Assembly: GCA_001788835.1 (NCBI GenBank)
Contig: MFXK01000017.1
Span: 1 to 42,284, forward strand
Direction of reading: 5' to 3'
From: Candidatus Peregrinibacteria bacterium RIFOXYB2_FULL_33_20
Lineage (GTDB): Bacteria; Patescibacteriota; Gracilibacteria; UBA1369; GWF2-33-10
Length of the DNA: 42,284 nt
Each line of letters opens with the position of its first letter. Position 1 is the first letter of the stretch. Position numbers and translations under genes: made by a program. Shown here piece after piece: positions 4,785 to 35,014 of the stretch. A model generated the notes under the pieces. That model saw only the letters and a program-made list of their open reading frames with translations. It was not told where the DNA came from and searched no databases.

Positions 4785-4824
4785 TTGAGAAATTTTAAAT
4801 TATAAATTCTAAATTTTCAATTCA

Positions 4825-4852
4825 TTCAAAATTCAAAATTCAAAATTCAAAA
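4825..4852. repeat. Heptamer run (TTCAAAA)x4
   Basis: Four perfect TTCAAAA units between the pilO-like and pilB genes, preceded by degenerate AAATTCT/AAATTTT units. The same unit recurs at 12475 and 34987 and its complement at 26300. Confidence 0.85.
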
Positions 4853-4858
4853 TTTTTT

Positions 4859-12462: not shown

Positions 12463-12474
12463 TTTGAAGCGTAA

Positions 12475-12495
12475 TTCAAAATTCAAAATTCAAAA
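12475..12495. repeat. Heptamer run (TTCAAAA)x3 upstream of tRNA-Ile
   Basis: Three perfect TTCAAAA units ending 12 bp before the tRNA 5' end; same unit as at 4825. Confidence 0.8.
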
Positions 12496-12507
12496 TTTTC
12501 ATAATCA

Positions 12508-24756: not shown

Positions 24757-24811
24757 AATTCTTAATTCTTAATTTTGAATTAATTTAAAATTTAAAATTT
24801 AAAATTTAAAA
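24757..24811. repeat. Two adjoining heptamer runs before proS
   Basis: Units TTGAATT/CTTAATT (four copies from about 24754) pass into (TTTAAAA)x4 at 24784-24811, ending 7 bp before the proS ATG. Confidence 0.75.
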
Positions 24812-31088: not shown

Positions 31089-31116
31089 AGCTATGAGCTG
31101 TGAGTCATAAGTATCA
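31089..31116. repeat. Heptamer run after infB
   Basis: AGCTATG, AGCTGTG, AGTCATA, AGTATCA in register, starting at the last base of the infB stop region and running into the first REP palindrome. Confidence 0.6.
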
Positions 31117-31331
31117 TTCCTGCGGAAGCAGGAATCTTAGTCCCCTGTCATTCCAGCGAAGGCTGGAATCCAGTCAATATACTCATTATTTATTTGGTAA
31201 CTTCCTATATAAATAAAATTTATCATAAAATAGAATTCTCTTATTTTTGTTAACTAATTCTCTATACAAAATGAGAAATAACACTATCGACTAAAGTCCT
31301 CCACTGGATTCCAGACTAAATCTAGAATGAC
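31113..31331. repeat. REP-like palindrome cluster between infB and the PfkB kinase gene
   Basis: Three copies of a palindromic repeat: 31114-31136 (TCATTCCTGC..GCAGGAATC), 31147-31173 (GTCATTCC..GGAATCCAG) and, inverted, 31304-31331 (CTGGATTCC..GAATGAC). The stretch 31225-31307 next to the last copy, reverse-complemented, aligns with 32701-32775, sharing GAGGACT, TCGATAGTGTT, ATTTT-TAT and TAGTTAA. This whole gap between infB and the kinase gene is thus repeat DNA; no gene is seen in it. Confidence 0.8.
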
Positions 31332-32552: not shown

Positions 32553-32677
32553 AAGAAATAAATTAAAAAATATTTTTTAGTTTTTTAGTATATTACCTTA
32601 TATTTTTTATAAAATTTTGTCAATTAATTTGGATCAAGCGGAAACTGGTTTGAAAAAATTTTAATTTATCGTCAGCC

Positions 32678-32704
32678 GTCATTCCTGCGAAGGCAGGAAT
32701 CCAG
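32678..32704. repeat. REP-like palindrome, left copy in the element
   Basis: GTCATTCCTGCGAAGGCAGG followed by AATCCAG. Extended on the right by GAGGACT...TCGATAGTGTTT, shared with the copy near 31304. Confidence 0.85.
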
Positions 32705-32752
32705 TAGAGGACTAACTTCGATAGTGTTTATATATTTTATATGGAAGACTAG

Positions 32753-32985
32753 TTAAAACAAATAATATAAATGTTTAATTTGTTTCTCTTTTTCAATTCC
32801 TGATATTGCAGTATCAAATTCTTCATATCATACTAATCTTGATATATTATATTTTGATGAAAAGCTTTTATTAATTTGTTCTTTATGTTCATTAATTCTT
32901 CTTTCTAAATTATTTGTCATTCCTACATATAAAGTACCATTACGTTTACTAGCAAGAATATATACAAAATAAGTTTTATCCATAA
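32753..32985 (-). pseudogene. Degenerate GIY-YIG endonuclease gene
   Basis: From ATG at 32985 the minus strand reads MDKTYFVYILASKRN, the start of small YhbQ-like GIY-YIG proteins. An extra AT dinucleotide (about 32939-32942) then shifts the frame. In the next frame it continues GTLYVGMTNNLERRINEHKE and KYNISRLV, then meets TGA (32828-32830) where the family usually has Trp or Tyr before YEEF. It goes on to EKEKQIK and ends early at TAA 32753-32755, lacking the last approximately 20 residues. One frameshift, one stop and a truncated end: a pseudogene. It is enclosed by REP palindromes inside the inverted-repeat element. Confidence 0.8.
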
Positions 32986-33001
32986 ATAATCATTATATTT
33001 A

Positions 33002-33029
33002 CTGGATTCCAGACTAAATCTGGAATGAC
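33002..33029. repeat. REP-like palindrome, right copy in the element
   Basis: CTGGATTCCAGACTAAATCT then GGAATGAC. Nearly identical to 31304-31331; oriented opposite to the left copy, so the two face each other across the pseudogene. Confidence 0.85.
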
Positions 33030-33112
33030 CTTACGACAAATAATATCCATCATTTCTGGTCTTTTCATGAATTTTTTAAATTATTTCTTCAAACCAGTTT
33101 CCGCTTGATCCA

Positions 33113-33911: not shown

Positions 33912-34982
33912 TTAAAATTTTGTCAAATCAAATGCGCCAAATTTTCTAATATCTACACAGCTATCACCTTTCCCAACCCCTTCACAAAATCCCCTCACCT
34001 TTTCACTATAACTTAAAGCAAGGAAATCCTTTTTAAATTTGTGTGCCAAAATTATGGAATGAAGTCTCATGCCAATAACAAAATGGGCATTAAAATATAG
34101 ATCAAAAATTTTATCAAAATCTGAACAATATTTTTGCACATGAAAATATTTTTTATTCAAAGTTTTCTCTCTAATATACAGCAAATAAGCCTCATCATCA
34201 TCTCTAAGTTTTTCAAATGGTATTCCAATAATTTCATAGCCTTTTTCTTGAATTAAGAAATTACACATCTTCACAATTTCCTCATCAAATTTTTCTTTTT
34301 CCTTACCATTTAGCCAATTCCTTAAAGAAAGAATAATATACCCACATTTGTCATTCCTGTGAGAACAGGAATCTTTTTCCCATAAATGTAAAATTCCTGC
34401 CTTCGCAGGAATGACAGAAAAAGGAGTAGGAATGCTAAGAGACGACGCAAAATCCTCCACAACCTTTATCTCCTTCCTAACTCCAATTTCTTTTAAGAGT
34501 TTCTTCGAAATCTCATCCCTGATTGTTATTTCATGAACATGATTAAATAAAAAACTAACTATTTTTCTAGACCACAATTTATTTAAAGGACCGACCGAAT
34601 TTCCTAAAATCCTAATTCTTTTCCTTAAAATCAAGGCTAAAAACAAATGAAAACCCCAAATAAATATTGCTTTTGGTTTATCATCCTGCATTAATCCCCC
34701 GCCACCAAAAATAAATTCATTGCATTGATAATACGCTTTTAAAGTTTGAAATAATTCTAAACCTAAAACACCCCTTAACAGTGATCTAACCCCACAAGGT
34801 AAAAAATATACTGATTTAACATGATGAAGTCTTTCAGTTTCTTTTGGATTATAACTTAAAACTACAACCCTAGCATTTAAGATTCCTGCTTTCGCTGGAA
34901 TGACAGCAAGAAGGCCTTTCAAAATTAATTCATCCCCTAAGTTAGTAGCCCCATAATTTCCACAAATAAAAATATTATTCAT
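33912..34982 (-). CDS. csaB: CsaB-like polysaccharide pyruvyl transferase with REP-derived inserts
   Basis: Transfers pyruvate from PEP to a cell-wall polysaccharide, making the ligand for SLH domains (family knowledge). N-terminal ICGNYGATNLGDELILKGLL is the family signature. The C-terminal NAHFVIGMRLHSIILAHKF and ALSYSEKVRGFCEG are also typical. Two palindrome inserts are translated: VIPAKAGI at about residue 31, and VIPAKAGILHLWEKDS with the following SHRND at about 190-210. I choose ATG 34982; the TTG at 34991 lies in a heptamer array. Twelve bp after the rnhB stop. The inserts fall in plausible loops, so activity may be kept. Confidence 0.82.
   Translation of the reverse strand: MNNIFICGNYGATNLGDELILKGLLAVIPAKAGILNARVVVLSYNPKETERLHHVKSVYFLPCGVRSLLRGVLGLELFQTLKAYYQCNEFIFGGGGLMQDDKPKAIFIWGFHLFLALILRKRIRILGNSVGPLNKLWSRKIVSFLFNHVHEITIRDEISKKLLKEIGVRKEIKVVEDFASSLSIPTPFSVIPAKAGILHLWEKDSCSHRNDKCGYIILSLRNWLNGKEKEKFDEEIVKMCNFLIQEKGYEIIGIPFEKLRDDDEAYLLYIREKTLNKKYFHVQKYCSDFDKIFDLYFNAHFVIGMRLHSIILAHKFKKDFLALSYSEKVRGFCEGVGKGDSCVDIRKFGAFDLTKF
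34350..34415. repeat. Inverted pair of REP palindromes inside the csaB-like gene
   Basis: 34350-34373 (GTCATTCCTG..AGGAATC) and 34392-34415 (inverse orientation, ..CAGGAATGAC) separated by 18 bp. They are in frame and encode about 22 residues. The pair could form a long hairpin in the mRNA. Confidence 0.85.
34881..34904. repeat. Single REP palindrome inside the csaB-like gene
   Basis: Minus strand GTCATTCCAGCG..GCAGGAATC, read in frame as VIPAKAGI near residue 31 of the pyruvyl transferase, between an alpha helix and the strand VVVLSYNP. Confidence 0.85.
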
Positions 34983-34986
34983 ATAA

Positions 34987-35014
34987 TTCAAAATTCAAAA
35001 TTTAGAATTTAAAA
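34987..35014. repeat. Heptamer run at the rnhB/csaB junction
   Basis: TTCAAAA, TTCAAAA, TTTAGAA, TTTAAAA in register. It contains the rnhB stop (34995-34997) and encodes the last residues of RNase HII (LNSKF). Confidence 0.8.

Follow-up and report, generated by a model that had tools for sequence, protein, structure and literature searches.

Palindromic units fitting the CGTC-1 REP family lie in frame within a csaB-like gene and other conserved genes of a Peregrinibacteria genome

The stretch of DNA analysed here (42,284 nt, hereafter the window) belongs to the 1.5-Mb, 42-contig draft genome of Candidatus Peregrinibacteria bacterium RIFOXYB2_FULL_33_20 (G000), an uncultured member of the Candidate Phyla Radiation (CPR), and includes an ORF for a putative polysaccharide pyruvyl transferase (Table 1). 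This ORF ends with a stop at 33912-33914 and is open over 359 codons from a TTG, the ATG at codon 4 (34982) being the likelier start. A profile search matched it to PF04230 with an E-value of 1e-31, the match spanning both inserts described below, whereas its TIGR03609 score of 169 bits did not reach the model cut-off of 213 bits, and it was therefore named csaB-like. The encoded protein retains every column that is invariant across 38 homologues. It is about 60% identical (dN/dS about 0.16) to the orthologue of the nearest relative compared, Ca. Peregrinibacteria RIFOXYB2_FULL_32_7 (G001), which belongs to another genus, and in both genomes the gene is adjoined by rplS and an HTH gene. Judged from its sequence, the gene looks intact. 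CsaB has an established role in the pyruvylation of the S-layer anchor, and the SLH-domain protein that is encoded within the same window would be expected if this were also the function here. The PDB was searched with the single sequence, which gave no match, and with a CsaB profile, which gave only a weak match to yeast Pvg1p; this pyruvyltransferase was also among the structure matches of the AlphaFold2 model, whose fold is GT-B-like.

Table 1. Position of the csaB-like gene and of the repeat units in the window
Feature	Position	Strand	Basis or remarks
Type-B (TT-tailed) unit, intergenic, downstream of infB	31113-31136	+	pattern match
Type-A (CCA-tailed) unit, intergenic	31147-31170	+	pattern match
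Type-A (CCA-tailed) unit, intergenic, within a longer repeat	32678-32701	+	pattern match
csaB-like polysaccharide pyruvyl transferase ORF, carrier of three units	33912-34991	-	PF04230, TIGR03609, invariant columns
Pair, second unit, antisense to the gene, DSCSHRND (aa 207-214)	34350-34373	+	2 mismatches to pattern
Pair, spacer of 18 nt, encoding LHLWEK	34374-34391		sequence
Pair, first unit, VIPAKAGI (aa 193-200)	34392-34415	-	1 mismatch to pattern; pLDDT <50 at aa 192-202
Single REP unit, frame 0, VIPAKAGI (aa 30-37)	34881-34904	-	0 mismatches to pattern

Three copies of a 24-nt hairpin of the form GTCATTCC...GGAATC, all of them in frame, are present in this gene. The first-pass annotation had placed them at these positions, where they were recovered with the pattern GTCATTCCNGCNNNNGCNGGAATC, and its view that they neither break the gene nor displace its conserved motifs agrees with the open ORF, the PF04230 match across both inserts and the conservation of all invariant columns. 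In the predicted fold, each unit has a stem of 8 bp and a loop of 4 nt, with one stem mismatch in the single unit. The two units of the pair are arranged head-to-head, and their 66 nt, spacer included, form one long hairpin (-14.4 kcal/mol, z -5.1).

Comparison with a CsaB homologue lacking the inserts and mapping on a predicted structure had both been proposed in that annotation. Alignment with the G001 orthologue revealed that all three units are absent from it. At the site of the single unit, GLLAVIPAKAGILNARVVVLS in G000 is replaced by GLLTLYPKEKITVLS in G001; the unit does encode VIPAKAGI, as had been read, but the net gain is 6 residues instead of 8, and this site is merely 2 residues longer than in a more distant homologue (L033). 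Between VED and YIILSLR, where the pair is located, there are 37 residues against 19 in G001. The pair itself comprises exactly 22 codons, in agreement with the length previously given, but adds a net 18 residues, and the length of this site varies widely among other homologues. The AlphaFold2 model (mean pLDDT 89) has values below 50 solely within the pair, at residues 192-202 and 208-210. In this model the single unit forms the end of helix 18-34 together with the next loop, and the pair, predicted as disorder, lies in the interdomain linker.

Six units were found in the window, against a mean of 0.03 in window shuffles, and with up to 3 mismatches allowed the whole G000 genome contains 96 matches (reversed control, 0). 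The bases that follow GGAAT split them into type A (CCA) and type B (mostly CTT). Type A comprises 38 copies, with the CCA tail in 38/38; none of the 38 lies inside a recognised gene of G000, two extend into the final ten codons of an ORF, and many are located at contig ends or within longer repeats. Type B comprises 57 copies at 48 sites, either as single 24-nt units or as 66-69-nt dimers. The dimers, nine in number, all have their GTC ends outside and are thus head-to-head, with spacers of 18-21 nt that are not conserved in sequence. A T precedes GTC in 32/34 genic and 21/23 other type-B copies, which are therefore of the TGTC form. Inside 25 Pfam-recognised genes there are 34 type-B copies at 29 sites, and the association between type and location (genic or not) is strong (Fisher's p 9e-11); the remaining copies are mostly near ORF ends or between ORFs. 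The first pass had missed both that csaB belongs to a set of about 25 such genes and that the intragenic copies are all of one tail type. The N-terminal cases in EPSP synthase, TrmB-like and TrpG were excluded from the count, since their start codon may be wrong. The intragenic share (29/48) is below the coding fraction of the window (0.90; p 8e-8), which would be expected had many genic insertions been removed, in a set selected for open frames, from which gene-breaking copies would escape. A pyrimidine-rich tract precedes the genic type-B units (pyrimidine fraction about 0.8 at -9 to -2 versus about 0.63 in the other type-B copies), as compared over the type-B copies of G000 and also G061 loci L170-L189 (G061 being a genome of another family of the order); this tract may belong to the element or reflect a preferred target.

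The carriers encode pgi, a riboflavin synthase, FTCD, a GT4 protein, two Mur ligases, an amidohydrolase, hisIE, hisA/F, hisH, guaA (two sites), maf, DHFR (two), csaB (two sites, three units), wecG-like and wzy-like proteins, uvrC, prmC, sua5, DUF167, nadC, pdxT, gnd, an ATP-grasp protein (two) and a femAB-like protein. The insert is absent from relatives in csaB, pgi, guaA (2), DHFR (2), ribE, pdxT, prmC, hisF and DUF167, and the solved structures of PdxT and DHFR align with the sequence before and after the insert. The gnd gene has no net gain with respect to G001, and the comparison with the orthologue is ambiguous for uvrC, nadC, sua5, maf and the second Mur ligase. Net gains in the carriers are often other than 8 or 22 residues. 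No exact empty site was found among the relatives compared; the nearest one is too distant to provide it, or to define insert boundaries or target duplications. The recurrence in 25 genes, with many insert-free orthologues, bears out the proposed parallel with the in-frame insertions of Rickettsia.

One explanation for this recurrence is that csaB and the other carriers are decaying and accept the repeats because they are dispensable. It is generally known that csaB is not universally essential and that draft CPR genomes contain some pseudogenes. Against this, csaB keeps all its invariant columns and a low dN/dS with respect to G001, guaA, DHFR, uvrC, prmC, sua5 and the Mur ligases are among the carriers, mostly single-copy housekeeping genes, and two carriers that have the insert on both sides of the comparison show dN/dS values of 0.14-0.19. 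Decay is thus very unlikely, and about 25 enzyme genes with inserts are apparently working, as far as their sequences indicate; the insert-bearing proteins would be translated and enzymatically active.

Even less credible is an assembly artefact, in which repeats would have been misjoined in a draft metagenome genome. It is true that the draft has 42 contigs, several of which end in longer type-A repeats, but units of 24-69 nt are shorter than a sequencing read, in 25 genes the coding sequence on either side of the unit belongs to one and the same protein and stays in frame, two of the insertions recur in the independently assembled G001, and the same pattern is found in G061.

The two insertions common to G000 and G001 are in frame in both genomes, one in a Mur-ligase gene (KIPASAGMT; dN 0.079, dS 0.56) and the other in hisIE (KIPAFAGMT; dN 0.057, dS 0.30). 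With dN/dS ratios of 0.14 and 0.19, respectively, both genes have remained under purifying selection while carrying the insert. For most other gene pairs of the two genomes dS is >1, which points to a more recent common ancestor of these two genes, perhaps via transfer. In both cases 24/24 bases of the core are identical, versus 84% and 91% of the flanking coding DNA. This identity is what might be expected if the inserted peptides had been recruited, as loops that tune enzymes or mediate interactions, and were kept by selection on the peptide. However, the two conserved cases may reflect chance or recent transfer, and units in five frames and both orientations give five different peptides in unrelated proteins. 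In addition, the csaB pair models as disorder, and the loops of the G001 Sua5 and HisH proteins that match the inserts are filled by unrelated low-complexity repeats, which suggests that such loops tolerate additions. Recruitment is therefore considered improbable.

The reading frames used were also analysed. The unit core is stop-free in 5/6 frames, and all five open frames are used, the genic copies numbering 7, 9 and 3 in those of the gene strand and 8 and 7 in those of the other strand. In the frame in which a TTA tail gives TAA, stop-making tails were present in 0/8 copies versus 31/49 other type-B copies. The contrast agrees with reading-frame selection but is partly forced; as proof of selection it was set aside, because an open ORF had been required beforehand.

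At up to 1 mismatch, units were detected in 5/89 genomes of the order. G061 contains 42 units, many of them in ORFs that encode conserved domains (TsaD, phosphomannomutase, CarB, QueG, POR, glycosyltransferases and a SPOUT methyltransferase); their intragenic status rests on these domains, orthologue alignment having been applied to G000 genes only. The Y1 transposase (PF01797) is present in 23/89 genomes of the order, and it was not found in G000, G001 or G061. Hence, nothing ties these REPs to a RAYT, and a Y1/RAYT transposase was rejected as the mobiliser.

Very probably, then, the extra segments are copies of a non-autonomous REP of CGTC-1 type that spreads in this genome and is tolerated in frame within genes. 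A small hairpin-forming repeat of this kind would spread in its single or dimeric form, often landing inside protein-coding genes. With a core that is open in five frames and a length change that is a multiple of three, it would add a short peptide and leave the protein usable, and copies would persist where the fold tolerates extra residues, which in csaB would be where helix 1 ends and where the two Rossmann-like domains are linked. Movement might depend on an enzyme acting in trans or on replication errors at hairpins. The spread may be selfish and near-neutral, and the insertions are most likely tolerated. A bolder proposal, which we regard as rather doubtful, is that in CPR genomes the TT-tailed units form a REP lineage specialised for residence inside coding sequence; this lineage would spread through housekeeping genes as frame-neutral inserts, with an undescribed mobiliser in place of a Y1 transposase, and pass between lineages with host genes.

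Other repeats and insertions were observed in these sequences. Two MITE-like segments of the window, at 31147-31331 (185 bp) and 32678-33029 (352 bp), are bounded on one side by a type-A unit and on the opposite side by a degenerate inverted unit, and a 30-bp inverted repeat flanks 32630-33112. AT-rich AATTCAAAATTCAAAATT repeats lie between genes at 4791-4856, 12473-12499, 24782-24808 and 34985-35011, and similar low-complexity repeats appear in the G001 Sua5 and HisH loops. A further family (HPSLKREGV, NPPPTPPLQRRGEE, SPPCPRSLEREGV) is in frame in several genes (L006, L073 and L091 of G000). In the DHFR gene (L018:1291-2037, G000:C13) NDKGDGNDKGDGND follows the second unit and seems to have arisen by tandem amplification of the unit's end. 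Besides its REP unit, uvrC (L092:1-1803, G000:C25) has a UvrC RNase H region that encloses a GNAT acetyltransferase domain, and the EPSP synthase gene aroA (L083:1484-3031, G000:C16) includes an in-frame DUF559 endonuclease-like domain (about aa 342-449), which is flanked by other short repeats.

What is new in these results is the host lineage, the kind of event being already known. Rickettsia is the best-known case of in-frame palindromic insertion into genes, and such a density in a 1.5-Mb CPR genome indicates that the event is not tied to alphaproteobacterial parasites. Conserved enzymes of this genome provide about 29 sites of natural insertion, and some inserts persist in genes common to both genera. 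In addition, this one genome, in which no Y1 transposase was found, sets side by side two tail types that share a core, of which one is frequent inside genes and the other was not found there. Among the papers searched, none joined Patescibacteria with "repetitive extragenic palindromic" and none contained VIPAKAGI, and broader CPR searches yielded nothing relevant.

The csaB-like protein resembles the CsaB polysaccharide pyruvyl transferases in its PF04230 match, invariant residues and GT-B-like fold, and differs from them in its two repeat-coded extra segments and its TIGR03609 score below the cut-off. With the GTAG REPs and REPINs that are associated with RAYT, the units share the inverted pair of hairpins and the uneven spread among relatives. 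Unlike those, they end in TGTC or CGTC without the GTAG tag, their dimer spacers are not conserved in sequence, and the REP-rich G000 and G061 lack a Y1 transposase. The palindromic elements of Rickettsia (RPEs) are in-frame insertions in many genes (reviews PMC10969869, PMC2229807), and the guanylate kinase of Rickettsia stays active despite its RPE insert (PMC2229807). As in G000, these palindromes lie in many unrelated conserved genes and add short peptides; the host here belongs to a different phylum, and no one reading frame is favoured in G000. In R. conorii, RPE-4 and RPE-6 count among the CGTC repeats; the length of RPE-1 is about 100-150 bp.

The CGTC REPs described by Di Nocera et al. 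(2013, PMC3733652) have stems of 8-9 bp and loops of 4-5 nt, form head-to-head dimers and have no dedicated transposase, and some of them lie inside genes, where dimers add 20-30 residues. Their hosts are Proteobacteria, Chlorobi, Bacteroidetes, Spirochaetes and Thermotogae, CPR not being among them, and CGTC-1 is equated with R. conorii RPE-6 and Neisseria dRS3 (PMC3733652). The first-pass annotation had assumed a different lineage and a different repeat family from those of Rickettsia. The host is indeed far from Rickettsia, but the second assumption is not supported, since the 8-bp stem, the 4-nt loop, the terminal TGTC and the head-to-head dimers fit the CGTC-1 family; the link to RPE-6 comes through PMC3733652. 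A search with the unit and its flanks returned records of Neisseria, Azospirillum and Sphingobium with weak E-values. The short unpaired tails of CGTC-1 units mostly, but not always, fit CCA (PMC3733652), as does type A, whereas the intragenic type is mostly tailed CTT. The host in CPR and the larger intragenic share (29/48 type-B sites) also set the units apart from the CGTC-1 REPs, with which they share an 8-bp stem starting with AT, the 4-nt loop, a terminal (C/T)GTC, head-to-head dimers, the location of some units inside genes and the lack of a dedicated transposase.
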